Positions 12,944 through 22,507 of a stretch of DNA of 33,406 bases are shown here, piece by piece; position 1 is the stretch's first letter, and each line of letters opens with the position of its first letter. The stretch is from an uncultured Clostridia bacterium. GTDB lineage: Bacteria > Bacillota > Clostridia > Oscillospirales > Ruminococcaceae. The stretch is from positions 1-33,406 of the forward strand of contig CALXEL010000003.1 in NCBI GenBank assembly GCA_944387315.1. The letters run 5' to 3'. Under the pieces are notes generated by a model. The model was given only the letters and a program-made list of their open reading frames with translations, had not been told where the DNA came from and did no database searches. A program made the translations under genes and the position numbers.

Positions 12944-13723
12944 TTATTGATTGGCCGCCTTCAGCCGCAGCCGCAGCTTATCGGAAATCATCGCGATAAA
13001 CTCGCTGTTGGTGGGCTTGCCTCTCTGATTGTGAATGGTATACCCAAAGTAAGAATTGAGAATATCTACATCGCCCCGATCCCAGGCAACCTCAATAGCA
13101 TGACGGATCGCACGCTCCACCCGAGAAGAGGTGGTACTGAATTTTTTAGCCACAGTGGGATACAGCTGTTTGGTCACCGAATTGATAATATCCGGGTTCT
13201 GTACCGCCAACAAAATGGATTCCCGCAGATAATGATATCCTTTAATATGGGCTGGAACACCAATCTGATGTATGATTTCGGTTACCATCATCTCCAAATC
13301 CGGCTGCAATTTACCGTTGCCATTGGAGGTGGGCGCTTCGTTTTTCTTAAATCCGGAAATCTGTACAATCCGCTCTACCAACACCTCGGTATCGAAAGGC
13401 TTGAGAAAATAATAGGAGGCTCCGCAGGACAACAGCTCCCGCTCCAACATGGAGTTGTCAAAGGTAGACATCATCATAAAGAGAGGTTGAACGCTTAGAT
13501 TGGCACTGCGCACACTCTTCATCACCCCAATGGCATCCAACTTGGGCATAAACACATCTGCCAGAACAATGTTGGGCTGATATTCCAAAATCATTTCTAC
13601 CAGTTTTACCCCATCCTTGGGAGCAACCATGGTTTCATATCCATAAGTGCGGAACAGCGCGCTGCACTGTGCGCAAAATTCCCGATTATCATCTGCAATC
13701 AATACCTTTACCCGAGATGTCAT
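12944..13723 (-). CDS. spo0A: Sporulation master regulator Spo0A
   Basis: 259 residues. An N-terminal receiver domain has the acidic pocket Asp11/Asp12, phospho-acceptor Asp56 ([10 protein letters not shown]) and Lys108 (LKPFD). A linker leads to the Spo0A-specific DNA-binding domain with the recognition region [16 protein letters not shown] and the conserved FGYTI. When phosphorylated it commits the cell to sporulation by binding TGTCGAA-type boxes. The ATG at 13723 follows GGAGGT. It lies downstream of spoIVB as in most Clostridia, with its own promoter and nearby Spo0A boxes that point to autoregulation. Confidence 0.98.
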
Positions 13724-13761
13724 GTGGCTACCTCCAAATTGTAAAAATTTTCCATGTCCAA

Positions 13762-13790
13762 AGAATACCATATTTTTCCAATTAATGCAA
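13762..13790 (-). promoter_or_regulatory. spo0A promoter
   Basis: Minus strand: TTGCAT (13790-13785), 17-base spacer, TATTCT (13767-13762). A Spo0A box lies immediately upstream. Confidence 0.5.
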
Positions 13791-13793
13791 CAG

Positions 13794-13800
13794 TTTGACA
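13794..13800 (-). promoter_or_regulatory. Spo0A box upstream of spo0A
   Basis: TGTCAAA on the minus strand matches the TGTCRAA core. It sits 3 bases upstream of the -35 element, a position used for activation. Confidence 0.5.
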
Positions 13801-13841
13801 ACGGGAACTGATATGAATTTATTATAAAATTTTAGAGGATA

Positions 13842-15703: not shown

Positions 15704-16861
15704 CTATTTGCTCTCAATACGATTCTTGGCAGTTAACCCCAAACTTTTTATATCTACCCGAATATCCCACTCCATCTGAAGATTTGACATCTCTTGGGGC
15801 CAGCTGTCCTGTTGGCTCTTCCAATATTCAGGCAGATACCGATCCAGATATTTACTAAAACGAAATACATCGGTGGGACCATCCTGCTGGGCATGGCGAA
15901 AAGCCATATCCGCTTCTTGCTCTATTTCTTTCTCTATCAATTGGGTCAACAAAGGAATATGGGAAAATTCCATCTCGGTTTGCTGAGTATAAATGGCTTC
16001 CGGAATGGAACACACCACATCCAGACGCAAAGTAAAAATCAACTGGCCTCCTTCCAATTTAGGACGCAGCTGATGATATACTGGCTGCACTACAGCAGTA
16101 TAGCGGTTGTCACCCTCTTCCAGAACCATGGTGGTCTGTTCCACCTCTCCTAAAATCCATTCCGCTCCTCGGATTTCCAGCTGAGAAAAATAGAGGGTAT
16201 CCCCATCTTTAATGGGAGCCGCGCCTCCAAGAATTTGCAGCTGTCCCTCCCCATTCTCCTTTTCCTCGCTGCCCACATAGGCCAGCAATGGAGTCTCTCC
16301 GAGGCTGTTGGCGGCTCTCGCCACCTCCATCAAGGTGCTGTAAGGGGTCAATCCCGCCTCTTGGGCCAGTCCCACCATCCGCTCCATAGCGTCCGATGGC
16401 ACAATGCCCTGTTCCAACTGTAAGCCCACAATGTCCTTAGCTTTGCCATCACAGGCTAAAATTATGGTTTTAGGACGGGTTTCATGGCTGCCTGAAAAAA
16501 AGCTGATAACTCCATTGAGCTCCTTTTGTACCGCGTCCTCACCTAAAACAATCAACTGGTTGTTTCCTAAAAACACAGTTTTGCCTGTCTGTAAACTGAT
16601 TTGGCGAAAGGTATCTGCCATGGTTTTTCCTGTGGCTTCATAAACCTGGTTATTGGGTTTGCTGGCGTCAAATGCCCCTTGGGCACCTCCTCCTCCATCA
16701 TCCGGATCAAACACCTGTAGGGAAACATGGTAATTTCCGTCCTGATAATCCACACCAATGGCCTGTACAATGAGCCTATCTTTCAGCTCTATACCCGAAA
16801 ACCCGCACCCACTCAGAGGTAAAACCAAAGCCAACAGTAAAAGTATTATCCACCGTCTCAT
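15704..16861 (-). CDS. gerC: Ger(x)C-family germinant receptor lipoprotein
   Basis: 385 residues. The signal peptide ends in LSGC (Cys19 lipidated), followed by the family's LKDRLIVQAIGVDY opening and the C-terminal domain that closes Ger(x)C proteins. It is the outer-leaflet C subunit of a GerA-type germinant receptor in the spore inner membrane. The start overlaps the gerB stop by 4 bases (ATGA). The C subunit is needed for receptor function in model species. Confidence 0.93.
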   Translation of the reverse strand: MRRWIILLLLALVLPLSGCGFSGIELKDRLIVQAIGVDYQDGNYHVSLQVFDPDDGGGGAQGAFDASKPNNQVYEATGKTMADTFRQISLQTGKTVFLGNNQLIVLGEDAVQKELNGVISFFSGSHETRPKTIILACDGKAKDIVGLQLEQGIVPSDAMERMVGLAQEAGLTPYSTLMEVARAANSLGETPLLAYVGSEEKENGEGQLQILGGAAPIKDGDTLYFSQLEIRGAEWILGEVEQTTMVLEEGDNRYTAVVQPVYHQLRPKLEGGQLIFTLRLDVVCSIPEAIYTQQTEMEFSHIPLLTQLIEKEIEQEADMAFRHAQQDGPTDVFRFSKYLDRYLPEYWKSQQDSWPQEMSNLQMEWDIRVDIKSLGLTAKNRIESK

Positions 16862-17943
16862 AAACCTGGAGCCTCCTTCTTTTTTTTATGAGACAGAAAT
16901 AATAGCAATACCACCGGTATTCCCACTCCTGCCAATAAAAAAGGAATGCCATCCACAAAGGCTTCATGCAGCCACATAAGGGCAGCCAGGTCTCCAGAAA
17001 CCCACAAGGAACCAGCCAGTACAGCCACCACACTGGCTCCCAATAGCTTTCCCCGGTGTTTTCCCTGAAACAGGCGAGAAGCGCAATATGCAGACAAATA
17101 TAAATACAAGGAACATTTGATAAAAGCTATAAACACCCAGAGAGCCATATGCAGGGAATCCAGTCGCTGAATCAGAACCACCTGCGCGGAAGCCATCATG
17201 GTATAGATGGGGAAAACCTGACTTAAAGCATAGTCCCCCATAGTGAGGGAGGAATAGAAAATCATAATCAGATAATATCCCACACTGAGCGCAACAAACC
17301 ATATGCCGCCTCTGTACACTTTTCCACGCACCATAGGCACCAGCAACAGAAAGGGCACCAGCTCCAAATTTAAAGACACTCCCTGAAAAGCCACCTGCAA
17401 CACAGGTTTCCAGCCATGGCGCAAAGGAGGTAAAAGAAAAACAAAGGACAGATCTTTGGATAAACTGACAATCACCAAAAGGGTGCTCAACAGCACCACT
17501 ACCCCAAGTGCCAGAGAAAGTCTGGAAAAGGCTTCCAGGCCCATATATGCGCTATACAAAACAGCCAGTAAAAACAGTGGGATCAGCAGCAACCGACTGA
17601 CATAGGGGTAGATAGCACTGGAAAGAAAATATTGAAACTCCCCCACTGTGGAAATTGTAATAGACACACATAGAAGATAAAAACCCAAAGCGCAAAATTT
17701 TCCAAACAGGGGATGCATCCGATAACAGCAATCCAAAATATTATCCCCGGGATATAAGGATAACAGTTTTTGATAGAGCAAAACCAAAATCAGACAAACA
17801 ATACCTGAGAGAGCAATTCCCAACAGAGCGGCGCCGTTTTCCACAGTGTTCTCCTGTTTTGGGCTGAGAGTCAGCACAGAAAAGACTCTGCTTAAAAAGA
17901 GCAAAGCCACCAGCTGTCGCATATCAATTCGTGGTTGAACCAT
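16858..17943 (-). CDS. gerB: GerB-family spore germination permease
   Basis: 361 residues with about ten hydrophobic segments, an APC-superfamily-like transporter fold. This B subunit recognises the germinant in GerA-type receptors. The ATG at 17943 is preceded by GAGGAGG and overlaps the end of gerA by 20 bases. A longer frame starting at 18111 would run deep into gerA and lacks a site. The germinant cannot be inferred. Confidence 0.92.
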   Translation of the reverse strand: MVQPRIDMRQLVALLFLSRVFSVLTLSPKQENTVENGAALLGIALSGIVCLILVLLYQKLLSLYPGDNILDCCYRMHPLFGKFCALGFYLLCVSITISTVGEFQYFLSSAIYPYVSRLLLIPLFLLAVLYSAYMGLEAFSRLSLALGVVVLLSTLLVIVSLSKDLSFVFLLPPLRHGWKPVLQVAFQGVSLNLELVPFLLLVPMVRGKVYRGGIWFVALSVGYYLIMIFYSSLTMGDYALSQVFPIYTMMASAQVVLIQRLDSLHMALWVFIAFIKCSLYLYLSAYCASRLFQGKHRGKLLGASVVAVLAGSLWVSGDLAALMWLHEAFVDGIPFLLAGVGIPVVLLLFLSHKKKKEAPGL

Positions 17944-19489
17944 GGTTATCCTCCTCTCTTGGGTCGATTTCGGAGCCGGGCAAATCGGTGACAACCAAAT
18001 TCTCCTCTCCCAGCTGGCGCCAACTCCAACGGAACAAAGTATCTCGCATACTGTATAAAGACAAAGGACTGGCTGGTGTAGTTGCGGGGATTCCCATTGG
18101 ATTAATGGCACAGAGATTGACCCCGGCTATAGCCAACCCTAAGGTCAGACCAAACAATCCAAACCAGCCTCCCAACAAAATGAACACAAAACGCAAAACA
18201 GTAACTGGCTCATAGAGAGAAGGTACTACAAAGGAGCTAATGGCTGTAAGAGCCACTACCATAACCATAGGGGTACCAATTAAGCCGGCGGTCACCGCAG
18301 CGTCTCCAATGACCAACGCTCCTACAATACTGACAGCGTGCCCCACTGGGCGGGGCAGACGCAAGCCTGCCTCCCGCATGATCTCATAGATTAAATGGAT
18401 TAACAGCGCCTCAAAAACCAGTGGAAAAGGCGTTCCTTCCTCACTGGTAGCTACGTTGAATAGCAAAGCATCGGGGAACAACTCGGGATGAAAGGTGGCG
18501 ATAGCCACATAGAGTCCTGGGAGTAAAATCGTCATAAAAAAAGAAAAATATTTTAACCAGCGGATAAAAGTCGCATAGTAAGGACGATTGGCGTAATCAT
18601 CCATACTCTGGAAATTTTCATGGAACAGAAAAGGTAAAATCAAAGCGAACGGAGTACCATCTACCAGAATACCGATCCGTCCCTCGGAAACCTTGGCGCA
18701 CATGGTATCCGGACGTTCTGTGGTACCTACCCCTGTAAAGATAGAAAAAGGACGACTGTCAAAGAAAGGCTGCAAATAGCCGGATTCCATCACATTGTCC
18801 AGAGGAATTTGGGAAATCCGGTAACGCACCTGTTCCAGAAGCTGATCAGATACCAGGTCGGTCCGATAGACCAGACAGAGATCGGTACGGCTTTTTACCC
18901 CAACCTGTAACAGCTCCAACTTGAGATGAGGCGTTTTTAACCTGCGGCGTATCATAGTCATATTGATACGCAGTGCCTCCACAAATCCCTCCCGGGAACC
19001 CCGGACATTGGTTTCCGAAGAGGGTTCCGAAATGGAGCGGAAAGAAAATCCCTGTATGCCCAGAGCCGTTCCCTTGGACATGCCATCTACCAGCAGCACG
19101 ACAAATCCAGACATAATAAAGGCGAACAATTCCCCAAAGGTTAAAAACTCTTTTTGGTCACCAGCCAAAAGGGTTTTTTGATCCATCCATTCCATCAGCT
19201 TTTGGGGAGTGGGTTCTTTGAGCTGCAAAGCGGTCAAAGGCTCTATAACAATTTCTGTCAGGGTTTGTAAATTAAACATTCCCTCACACATAACAAAAGC
19301 AACTGGAATACCGCTGATTGTTATCTGCCGGACCAATAGATCGCTGGTATTGCTGCACAGTTCACGCAATCGCACCAGATCATCCAGCAGAACTCCTGAT
19401 AATCGTTCCGAAAGTCTGGGGTCAGCTGCGGGAGCCTGATATGAGCTACGAATATCCCGCCGTAAAACATTTTTAAGCCAGCGAAACAT
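17924..19489 (-). CDS. gerA: GerA-family spore germination protein
   Basis: 521 residues. A soluble N-terminal domain (about 1-300) leads to four or five membrane helices, with the family motif PFALILPFLFHENFQSMDDY before them. The A subunit forms an oligomeric ion channel that opens when the receptor binds its germinant. The ATG at 19489 follows GGGAGG. It is the first gene of a gerA-gerB-gerC operon with overlapping genes. A sigma-G-like promoter lies 50 bases upstream. Confidence 0.95.
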   Translation of the reverse strand: MFRWLKNVLRRDIRSSYQAPAADPRLSERLSGVLLDDLVRLRELCSNTSDLLVRQITISGIPVAFVMCEGMFNLQTLTEIVIEPLTALQLKEPTPQKLMEWMDQKTLLAGDQKEFLTFGELFAFIMSGFVVLLVDGMSKGTALGIQGFSFRSISEPSSETNVRGSREGFVEALRINMTMIRRRLKTPHLKLELLQVGVKSRTDLCLVYRTDLVSDQLLEQVRYRISQIPLDNVMESGYLQPFFDSRPFSIFTGVGTTERPDTMCAKVSEGRIGILVDGTPFALILPFLFHENFQSMDDYANRPYYATFIRWLKYFSFFMTILLPGLYVAIATFHPELFPDALLFNVATSEEGTPFPLVFEALLIHLIYEIMREAGLRLPRPVGHAVSIVGALVIGDAAVTAGLIGTPMVMVVALTAISSFVVPSLYEPVTVLRFVFILLGGWFGLFGLTLGLAIAGVNLCAINPMGIPATTPASPLSLYSMRDTLFRWSWRQLGEENLVVTDLPGSEIDPREEDNHGSTTN

Positions 19490-19630: not shown

Positions 19631-19665
19631 GAAACCATGAAATTTGGAAAAAGGGGGAAAAGAAA

Positions 19666-20349
19666 ATGTATGTCTCTCTCTTTCGCACTATATTGCTCTA
19701 TTTGCTCATTGTAGTGGGGCTGCGAATTATGGGAAAACGGCAATTGGGGGAGATGCAACCATCTGAGCTGGTGGTAACTATCCTGATTTCCAACATTGCC
19801 ACCTTACCCATAGAGGATTCCAATGTCCCCTTTTTAGGTGGAGCCATTCCCATACTCACCATCGTTTGTTTTGAGGTTTTTGCCTCTACATGCGCTTTAA
19901 AAAGCCAAAGGATTCGCAAAATTATTTCTGGAAATCCCCGTATTATTATCCGAGATGGCGTTATCGACCAAAAGGAGCTGCGGGAGTTGCGTCTCTCTAT
20001 TGATGATTTGATGGAACAGCTCCGTTCCAGCAGCATTTTTGACCCGAAAGAGGTTTTGTTTGCCATTCTGGAAACCACAGGGAAACTTTCAATATATCCT
20101 AAATTTTCCGCCCGTCCTGTCACGCCTCAGGTACTGCAAATTTCTCCTCCTGCAACATCTGACGCACCTCCTATGGTGCTAATCAGTGATGGGAAAGTTG
20201 TTCCAGATAGTTTGCACTACTGCAATTTAGATGAAAAATGGCTTGCAAAAACCATAAAAGAAAACGGTTACAAGCCAGAGGATATTTTCCTCATGACCTG
20301 TAACCGTAACGCGGACTACTATATTGTACCCAAGGAGACCAAACAATGA
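19666..20349 (+). CDS. DUF421 (YetF-type) membrane protein
   Basis: 227 residues. Two or three N-terminal helices (about 3-75, with the family GLRIMGKRQLGEMQPSEL) lead to the cytoplasmic DUF421 domain. Bacillus relatives (YetF, YrbG, YdfS and others) are mostly expressed in the forespore and some are linked to spore resistance or germination. The molecular role is unknown. The ATG at 19666 follows GGGGGAAAAG. The stop overlaps the next start by 4 bases. The sigma-G-like promoter and the divergent germination operon support a spore role. Confidence 0.88.
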   Translation: MYVSLFRTILLYLLIVVGLRIMGKRQLGEMQPSELVVTILISNIATLPIEDSNVPFLGGAIPILTIVCFEVFASTCALKSQRIRKIISGNPRIIIRDGVIDQKELRELRLSIDDLMEQLRSSSIFDPKEVLFAILETTGKLSIYPKFSARPVTPQVLQISPPATSDAPPMVLISDGKVVPDSLHYCNLDEKWLAKTIKENGYKPEDIFLMTCNRNADYYIVPKETKQ

Positions 20350-20726
20350 AACGGTTTTATCTCTCATTGGCTGTCTTTATCGGCCTGCTAGCCATTTGTG
20401 GATTTGCGTTACTGAAAATTGCCCAAACAAAGGAAGAAGTAGAAACCATGCTGGAAAGGATTACTTCTTCCGTCGAATCAGGAGATCTGCAATCCGCCCA
20501 AAGGCTATCAGATGAACTGATTACCTATTGGATTCCCCAGGAACATAAATTGATTCGCTATATCCGCCATGGGGAATTGGATACAATTACTCTATCCCTA
20601 TCCCGTCTGCCCTCCTTGATTCGCTATGAAAATCTTTCAGAATTTTTAGCAGAAATCAATCAGGTACAAACTGTACTCAACCATATTTGGGACTCAGAAA
20701 TTCCAGTATTGCGCAATATTCTTTGA
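20346..20726 (+). CDS. DUF4363 protein, partner of DUF421
   Basis: 126 residues: one N-terminal membrane helix (about 5-25) and a helical extracytoplasmic domain. It is often found directly after a DUF421 gene in spore formers. Here the coupling is by ATGA overlap, suggesting the two proteins act together in the forespore membrane. Function is not known. Its stop lies only two bases from the nrdR stop on the other strand. Confidence 0.85.
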   Translation: MKRFYLSLAVFIGLLAICGFALLKIAQTKEEVETMLERITSSVESGDLQSAQRLSDELITYWIPQEHKLIRYIRHGELDTITLSLSRLPSLIRYENLSEFLAEINQVQTVLNHIWDSEIPVLRNIL

Positions 20727-20728
20727 AA

Positions 20729-21190
20729 TCAGCGCTCTTTGGATTCCAAAATTTTTTTCAGTTCTGCCATAAAAGAATTAATGTCCTTAAACTGCCGGTA
20801 CACTGAGGCAAAGCGCACATATGCTACCTCATCAATATCTTTTAGCTTATCCATAGCCAACTCACCAATTTGCAGCGATGTAATCTCCCGATCCAGGGTA
20901 TTGCGCAAACTGTTTTCAATCTCATCTACTGCCTCTTCCAGCTGACTCATAGAGACCGGACGTTTTTCACAGGCACGCATCATGCCAGTCAGCAATTTAT
21001 CCCGGTCAAAAACCTCCCTGGATTTATCCTTTTTGATAATCATCAGGGGGGTTGTTTCAATTACCTCATATGTTGTGAATCGCTTAAGACATTTTAAACA
21101 TTCCCGCCGTCTGCGAATACGTTCTCCCTCGTCCGTAGGGCGGGAATCTACCACTTTGCTTTCGTCATAACCACAGTAAGGACATTTCAA
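20729..21190 (-). CDS. nrdR: Transcriptional repressor NrdR
   Basis: 153 residues, the standard length. A zinc ribbon (Cys3, Cys6, Cys31, Cys34) with the basic RIRRRREC segment binds NrdR boxes. An ATP-cone (about 46-140) senses ATP/dATP to repress ribonucleotide reductase genes. The start is TTG at 21190 with GAGGG upstream, fitting the family's conserved MKCPYCG opening. No nrd genes are in the window. Confidence 0.97.
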
Positions 21191-21268: not shown

Positions 21269-21532
21269 TTAAAGATAGAGGCTCTCAACAAAGTCCGCAA
21301 GCACATCCTCTACATGAATCCTGTGAAGTTGGCCGCTGTTACAACGGGCAACAAATTCTTCTATCACCTCTCTTTCTGTTGACAGATCATTGACCTGCCG
21401 AATCAACTTACCTTGGAAATCGTACACCGTTACACCATACACAATTTTAGGCAAAGGTTCGTCATCTGCTCCTCCTGTTTGACAGCTGCAAACCTGTAAC
21501 GTAACAATTTCTTTTTCCACTCCCCTTATCAT
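21269..21532 (-). CDS. Small DUF6514-like protein under likely Spo0A control
   Basis: 87 residues, acidic, soluble and mostly beta then alpha (about 28-50, then helices). The VYGVTVYDFQGKLIR and RIHVEDVLADF segments resemble the DUF6514 family, which is common in Clostridia and has no known function. AGGGAGG precedes the ATG. The promoter is overlapped by two exact Spo0A boxes (21600-21616), so a role early in sporulation is likely. The family call is from memory of the pattern. Confidence 0.7.
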   Translation of the reverse strand: MIRGVEKEIVTLQVCSCQTGGADDEPLPKIVYGVTVYDFQGKLIRQVNDLSTEREVIEEFVARCNSGQLHRIHVEDVLADFVESLYL

Positions 21533-21566
21533 ATTCCATAACCTCCCTGGTTGGTGTTTTTATTAT

Positions 21567-21595
21567 ACTATAGACAAAGGGATTGGACTAGTAAA
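21567..21595 (-). promoter_or_regulatory. Promoter of the DUF6514-like gene
   Basis: Minus strand: TTTACT (21595-21590), 17-base spacer, TATAGT (21572-21567). A second -10, TATAAT, overlaps at 21567-21562. The weak -35 fits an activator-dependent promoter. Confidence 0.45.
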
Positions 21596-21599
21596 ATAC

Positions 21600-21616
21600 T
21601 TCGACAAAATTCGACA
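21600..21616 (-). promoter_or_regulatory. Two tandem Spo0A boxes
   Basis: Minus strand: TGTCGAA (21616-21610) and TTTGTCGAA (21608-21600). Both carry the exact TGTCGAA core, in the same direction and 10 bases apart. They end 5 bases before the -35 of the DUF6514-like gene. Confidence 0.75.
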
Positions 21617-21721: not shown

Positions 21722-22507
21722 TTAAAAATTTTCAATATCCTTCTGAAGTTTTTTGTAAGAAATATCCAAATCTGTTATCAAATGAAAGTTGGAACGGTAC
21801 AATTCCAAAACCACACTAGGTTTTTCAGACAAGGGCAAAACTACATTTAGCAGATCCGCAACCCTGAAAATCCCCTGGCCATAAGGAACACAGTCCTCCT
21901 GTAAAGTGTGATCGCTAATATGAATATGGCGAATCCGTCCCCTCATAGCCCGAGCCATATCTAGGGGATCAACGCCTGCTCGCAGCGCTTGTTTGACATC
22001 CAAAACCGTACCACACTGAGGAAGCTTATGCCCCATTTCCTCAAAAAAATCCGGAACCGCCCCTACGCAGCGTTCTACATTTTCATGCACCAACTCTACG
22101 CCAAAAGATCTTGCGTCCTGACAAAGCTGTGAGTACCGGTTAAAATATTCTTCCCGGCTTAGATCACAGTGTTTGAATGCCCCATGAAATATTACATAAT
22201 CCGCTCCCAAAATTTTTGCGGCCCGGTAATAGTTTCGGTAATATTCCATGCCGTCCTCAAACCTTCTGGGATAGTTGGAAAAAAACAAAAATGGTTCGAA
22301 TCCAGAAGTATAGGGATGAATCGCCAAAATTCTCATTCCCGCCCCATCAGCCACATGGCGCAGTCTCTGGCAAAAGTCGGGCTGCAACTCCTGATGGCTG
22401 TTGATAAAAACTTCGGTAAAGGTAACCGATAGATTGGCCAATTGTTCTAGTGCCTCTTCTGTTGGCATAGGATACAGACAGGCAGTGGAAACCCCCACAT
22501 TTAGCAT
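21722..22507 (-). CDS. TIM-barrel sugar isomerase/epimerase-like protein
   Basis: 261 residues of the AP-endonuclease-2/xylose isomerase-like barrel. Conserved polar segments expected of the metal site are visible: AIHPYTSG (about 62-69), VIFHGAF, LVHENVE, VLDVKQA, HIHISDH and VLELYR. Such proteins isomerise or epimerise sugars or cyclitols, or act as endonuclease IV-like enzymes. The substrate is not evident. The start at 22507 follows GAAGGTG. It is a single gene divergent from a small membrane protein. Confidence 0.82.
   Translation of the reverse strand: MLNVGVSTACLYPMPTEEALEQLANLSVTFTEVFINSHQELQPDFCQRLRHVADGAGMRILAIHPYTSGFEPFLFFSNYPRRFEDGMEYYRNYYRAAKILGADYVIFHGAFKHCDLSREEYFNRYSQLCQDARSFGVELVHENVERCVGAVPDFFEEMGHKLPQCGTVLDVKQALRAGVDPLDMARAMRGRIRHIHISDHTLQEDCVPYGQGIFRVADLLNVVLPLSEKPSVVLELYRSNFHLITDLDISYKKLQKDIENF

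Follow-up and report, generated by a model that had tools for sequence, protein, structure and literature searches.

Tandem 0A boxes upstream of DUF6514 genes suggest a conserved Spo0A target in clostridia-type bacteria

The window analyzed here, a stretch of 33,406 nucleotides of clostridial DNA, contains two closely spaced copies of the heptamer TGTCGAA, the core of the 0A box, upstream of a small gene of the uncharacterized DUF6514 family. This raises the question of whether the gene is under the control of the sporulation regulator Spo0A and, if so, whether such control is peculiar to this locus or a general feature of the family.

The tandem boxes and the predicted promoter

The site lies on the minus strand and reads, from 21616 to 21562, TGTCGAA TTT TGTCGAA GTAT TTTACT AGTCCAATCCCTTTGTC TATAGTATAAT. 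A motif scan recovered both exact cores on this strand, the distal one at 21610..21616 and the proximal one at 21600..21606, in the same orientation and 10 bp apart from start to start, as described in the first-pass annotation; the gap between the cores is 3 bp. The same annotation had placed the boxes 5 bases before a weak -35 element; such an element is indeed recognizable by consensus match as TTTACT (21590..21595, minus strand), and the distance separating it from the proximal box is 4 bases rather than 5. The -10 candidate TATAGT (21567..21572, minus strand) follows at a distance of 17 nt, and the combination TTTACT-17-TATAGT agrees with the consensus at 9 of 12 bases, this being a match to the sigma-70-type consensus only. 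An exact TATAAT (21562..21567, minus strand), which overlaps TATAGT and lies 32 nt from the proximal box, provides an alternative -10 that would imply a 22-nt spacer from TTTACT. The position of the boxes upstream of TTTACT-17-TATAGT is consistent with the originally proposed geometry of a Spo0A-activated sigma-A promoter, and the conservation among homologs described below lends further support to this reading.

No exact TGTCGAA other than these two was found in the 33.4 kb window, for which the chance expectation of a single core is approximately 2. The tandem form TGTCGAAN3TGTCGAA occurs only once in the entire 1.98 Mb genome, as against an expectation of about 0.004 per genome estimated from the single-core rate, and a search for tandem pairs with up to 3 mismatches recovered no second site within the window. 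Given that single cores are common by chance, the argument depends on the pair, its position and its conservation. The TGTCGAA core is bound specifically by the Spo0A protein of C. difficile (PMC3485338).

The gene downstream of the boxes (21269..21532, minus strand) encodes a protein of 87 aa that matches the Pfam profile PF20124 with 28.2 bits (cut-off 23.9) over profile positions 34-93 of 94, thereby bearing out its earlier designation as DUF6514-like. It is followed in the same direction, after a gap of 78 bp, by nrdR (20729..21190, minus strand). No terminator-like site was found in this gap, and nrdR is possibly co-transcribed with the DUF6514 gene. Upstream, and likewise in the same direction, lies a gene of the AP_endonuc_2 family (21722..22507, minus strand), which is not part of the switch. 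The order of these three unidirectional genes is conserved. Across the collected loci the DUF6514 gene is accompanied by nrdR in 31 instances, by the AP_endonuc_2 gene in 16 and by acpS in 15. Convergent to the nrdR-DUF6514 pair are DUF421/YetF-like and DUF4363 genes (19660-20726, plus strand), an arrangement that recurs in about 13-14 loci.

The presumed regulator is encoded in the same window, about 8 kb from the boxes, by a full-length spo0A ORF (12944..13801, minus strand) with a Spo0A_C domain match at 12974-13285 scoring 158 bits. Between spo0A/spoIVB and the DUF6514 region lies a spore germination cluster (15704-19489, minus strand) comprising a GerA-type spore-germination protein (17924-19489, minus strand), a spore permease (16858-18111, minus strand) and, downstream, an ORF resembling GerC by visual inspection (15704-16861, minus strand). 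The presence of spo0A, the GerA protein and the spore permease indicates that the host possesses the sporulation regulator along with sporulation-related genes.

Conservation of the boxes upstream of DUF6514 genes

The conservation of the boxes upstream of homologs, which had been put forward as a check on the proposed regulation, proved to be strongly positive. In a sample of the order comprising 144 DUF6514 genes for which 200 bp or more of upstream sequence was available, an exact box on either strand was present within 200 bp upstream of 52 genes, as against 4 of the 221 other ORFs from the same loci that served as controls (Fisher p 1e-19, ignoring shared ancestry). An unbiased count of all 7-mers upstream of DUF6514 genes ranked TGTCGAA first by enrichment, and the box-positive genes span about ten families of the order. 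Outside the order, exact boxes were found at 29 of 69 further DUF6514 genes, where about 2 are expected. Among 78 Clostridiaceae loci from Clostridium genomes, collected with a profile derived from a Clostridiaceae alignment, 51 have an exact box within 350 bp upstream, while the background elsewhere in the same loci is about 0.006 per 350 bp. The boxes of Clostridium are nearly all reversed and situated near -193 bp, a layout unlike that of the window. Five DUF6514 genes found in a phylum-level search all have an exact box within 300 bp, four of these at about -241 to -249. The Clostridium promoters (loci L296-L375) have a further conserved block in common, ATGTCATATAAAAGAGATAA...CTTATCATGAAATGACA, located some 20-110 bp ahead of the DUF6514 gene; it forms an inverted repeat overlapping the likely -35 element immediately before TGNTAATAT.

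Within 200 bp upstream, neither an exact nor a tandem box is seen at about half of the family's genes, and short copies (<80 aa) are poorer in boxes (27% vs 52%). For calibration, exact or tandem boxes were counted in the same order upstream of two textbook targets: they are present at 65 of 144 DUF6514 genes, at 8 of 29 spo0A genes (250 bp) and at 2 of 30 spoIIGA genes. DUF6514 thus bears boxes more often in the order than either of these. The low recovery for spo0A and spoIIGA implies that scanning for exact cores overlooks many accepted or expected targets, and that the DUF6514 counts are conservative.

Box spacing and mode of regulation

The tandem arrangement is itself a recurrent feature of these promoters. 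Direct repeats of the box at a spacing of exactly 10 bp, allowing up to 3 mismatches over both copies, occur upstream of 66 of 213 genes, where 3.5 would be expected (p 6e-46); other spacings between 7 and 25 bp are far rarer, with a lesser rise at 18-20 bp. The tandem sites yield the consensus TGTCGAAattTGTCGAA, and the corresponding sequence in the window is TGTCGAATTTTGTCGAA. Distances from the box to the -10-like hexamer cluster at 32-33, 40-42, 51 and 62, that is, about one helical turn apart, with a Rayleigh p of about 0.0015 at period 10 that is uncorrected for the several periods tried. In structures of Spo0A-DNA complexes two Spo0A molecules follow each other head to tail along the same face of the helix, and the geometry of the DUF6514 boxes is as expected from this arrangement.

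Taken together, the sequence features make it very likely that the DUF6514 gene is transcribed at this site from a sigma-A promoter activated by Spo0A. As the cell enters stationary phase or begins to sporulate, Spo0A in its phosphorylated form would bind the two perfect boxes head to tail and, from this position just upstream of the -35 element, would aid RNA polymerase carrying sigma-A at TTTACT-17-TATAGT, or with TATAAT as the -10, thereby turning on the 87-aa protein and perhaps also nrdR behind it. As two perfect boxes predict high affinity, the promoter might be expected to respond at a low level of Spo0A~P. What the sequences show is the boxes, the promoter-like elements, the presence of Spo0A, the conservation of boxes and spacing across the family, and the co-occurrence with Spo0A described below; the binding of Spo0A, activation rather than repression, and the timing are inferred, and it is through Spo0A that DUF6514 would be tied to the start of sporulation.

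A different mode of action would be that Spo0A binds the boxes yet represses DUF6514, or sets its window of expression, instead of activating it. The reversed and distant boxes of Clostridium would be compatible with such a role, and perfect high-affinity boxes are also encountered at genes that Spo0A represses, abrB of B. subtilis being an example. The perfect box of the abrB promoter was used in PMC3485338. Nevertheless, repression is an unlikely explanation in view of the position of the boxes, which in the window, as in the majority of promoters from the order, precede the -35 element in helical phase with the -10 and neither cover the core promoter nor sit downstream of it.

Phyletic distribution of DUF6514 and Spo0A

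The phyletic patterns of DUF6514 point in the same direction as the boxes. Among genomes at least 90% complete, DUF6514 is present in 125 of 215 Spo0A-positive genomes of the order (Fisher p 1e-4 vs Spo0A-negative genomes, ignoring shared ancestry), and none of the 11 Spo0A-negative genomes of the order, nine of them identifiable by name, has DUF6514 among the matches listed. At the level of the class, where the overlap was taken from the matches listed, it is found in 3 of 50 Spo0A-negative versus 107 of 228 Spo0A-positive genomes (Fisher p 7e-9, again ignoring shared ancestry). In a phylum-wide sample DUF6514 was present in just 10 of 299 genomes, and control searches yielded no match in B. 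subtilis at the profile cut-off. In the present sample the family is restricted to clostridia-type lineages.

The main point in tension with control by Spo0A is posed by a single family, here denoted f64. The Spo0A DNA-binding domain was not detected in any of its nine genomes, all of which encode DUF6514, nor was SpoIVA detected in the eight of these that were tested. Within 300 bp upstream of DUF6514 (loci L376-L382, L247 and L255), TTCGACA is present in 4 of the 9 genomes and TTCGACG in four more, and in one genus of the family the block ATTATTCGAC is among the best-conserved parts of the intergenic region. Either the loss is fairly recent and these boxes are its relics, or something else uses them. 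Being retained in genomes without detectable Spo0A, DUF6514 cannot be a sporulation protein alone.

The f64 genomes, several of which keep the box along with the gene, could be taken to indicate that another regulator uses the TGTCGAA sites, alongside or in place of Spo0A. The TGTCGAA core and its tandem 10-bp arrangement agree, however, with the known target of Spo0A, DUF6514 co-occurs with Spo0A elsewhere, and about half of the f64 genomes carry the box in the decayed form TTCGACG, which is how a relic would be expected to look. We consequently regard the involvement of another regulator as improbable. The frequent adjacency of DUF6514 to nrdR or acpS suggests yet another scenario, in which the boxes act on a neighboring gene, be it nrdR, dnaG, acpS or one transcribed divergently, and precede DUF6514 only incidentally. 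This was rejected as highly improbable: the downstream neighbors vary by lineage (nrdR, acpS, dnaG, topA) while the boxes remain with DUF6514, and the other ORFs of the same loci are poor in boxes, as the control counts above indicate. Finally, a coincidental origin of the two heptamers, for which the frequency of the single core might speak, is effectively ruled out by the uniqueness of the pair in the genome and by its family-wide conservation.

The DUF6514 protein

Structure prediction with AlphaFold2 yielded, for the member from C. liquoris (pLDDT 90.7), four long antiparallel strands followed by two helices (beta-beta-beta-beta-alpha-alpha) and, for the window protein (pLDDT 72.4), three strands and two helices (beta-beta-beta-alpha-alpha). 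The expected beta-meander with two C-terminal helices is thus seen in both predicted models. A search of the two models against the PDB gave no significant match, the best Z of 5.8 being under the guide value of the tool; a resemblance to Borrelia Pur-alpha (3nm7; Z 4.5 over 52 residues, rmsd 2.2) is a weak lead only. PDB sequence matches from a profile search, with E-values of 0.012 and above, were judged to be due to chance, and matches of the window protein to viral contigs (L263-L265) were discarded on account of being replicative-helicase-like and not DUF6514. Our search of the open-access literature found no function, name or paper for DUF6514/PF20124.

Short paralogs of DUF6514 are found beside or fused to Xre-type HTH_3 domains in 14 loci, for example directly behind HTH genes in L056 and L191, and the fusion in L127 was confirmed (HTH_3 at 14-63 and DUF6514 at 70-148). 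The HTH-linked copies that were inspected are mostly short ones, which seldom possess 0A boxes, and they are not typical of the box-bearing forms. Given this association of a paralogous branch with Xre-type HTH_3 proteins, our best guess is that DUF6514 is a small partner protein tuning a DNA-binding regulator.

Implications for sporulation entry in clostridia

The link to Spo0A boxes, beyond the window in which it was noticed, is a family-wide trait of DUF6514. We conclude that DUF6514 is very probably a conserved Spo0A target of clostridia-type bacteria, one that has apparently gone undescribed, and that the family has probably been overlooked as a component of the programme that starts sporulation. 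Entry into sporulation in clostridia differs from that in Bacillus and is incompletely mapped. DUF6514 is a tangible candidate for one of the components still missing from this map, given that perfect, correctly spaced boxes are commoner at it than at spo0A and spoIIGA in the same order, that it is confined in the present sample to clostridia-type lineages and that it co-occurs with Spo0A. An uncharacterized Pfam family thereby gains a testable regulatory context. More speculatively, and with considerable doubt, DUF6514 might be a core, early (low-threshold) clostridial effector of Spo0A that, as a small partner, modulates a DNA-binding regulator when the cell decides whether to sporulate, and whose role is kept under a different input where sporulation has been lost.

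Comparison with known systems

The window protein and all of the proteins compared with it match the PF20124 profile. The SinI-type antagonists offer a functional parallel, inasmuch as DUF6514 is likewise predicted to be a small Spo0A-controlled protein and some of its relatives are fused to or located beside Xre-type HTH_3 proteins. Membership of DUF6514 in that group is disfavored by the beta-meander fold predicted for it, and the likeness is one of analogy only.

A second parallel is provided by the autoregulation of spo0A in Clostridia. Exact tandem boxes are also present upstream of spo0A in two relatives (L036 and L044), fitting autoregulation, while no box was found within 250 bp upstream of the spo0A gene in the window itself; in the order as a whole, exact or tandem boxes are less frequent at spo0A than at DUF6514.

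With spoIIG (spoIIGA-sigE), a representative of the Spo0A-activated sigma-A promoters of Bacillus, the window shares the placement of its 0A boxes ahead of a sigma-A promoter, and the likeness would extend to a 22-nt spacer if TATAAT is the -10. The boxes of spoIIG overlap the -35 element, whereas those of the window lie just upstream of it. The gene controlled also differs, DUF6514 having no match in B. subtilis. Lastly, spoIIG is known for its weak boxes (Baldus 1994, as cited in PMC3485338 and PMC12090719), in contrast to the window, in which both boxes are perfect.
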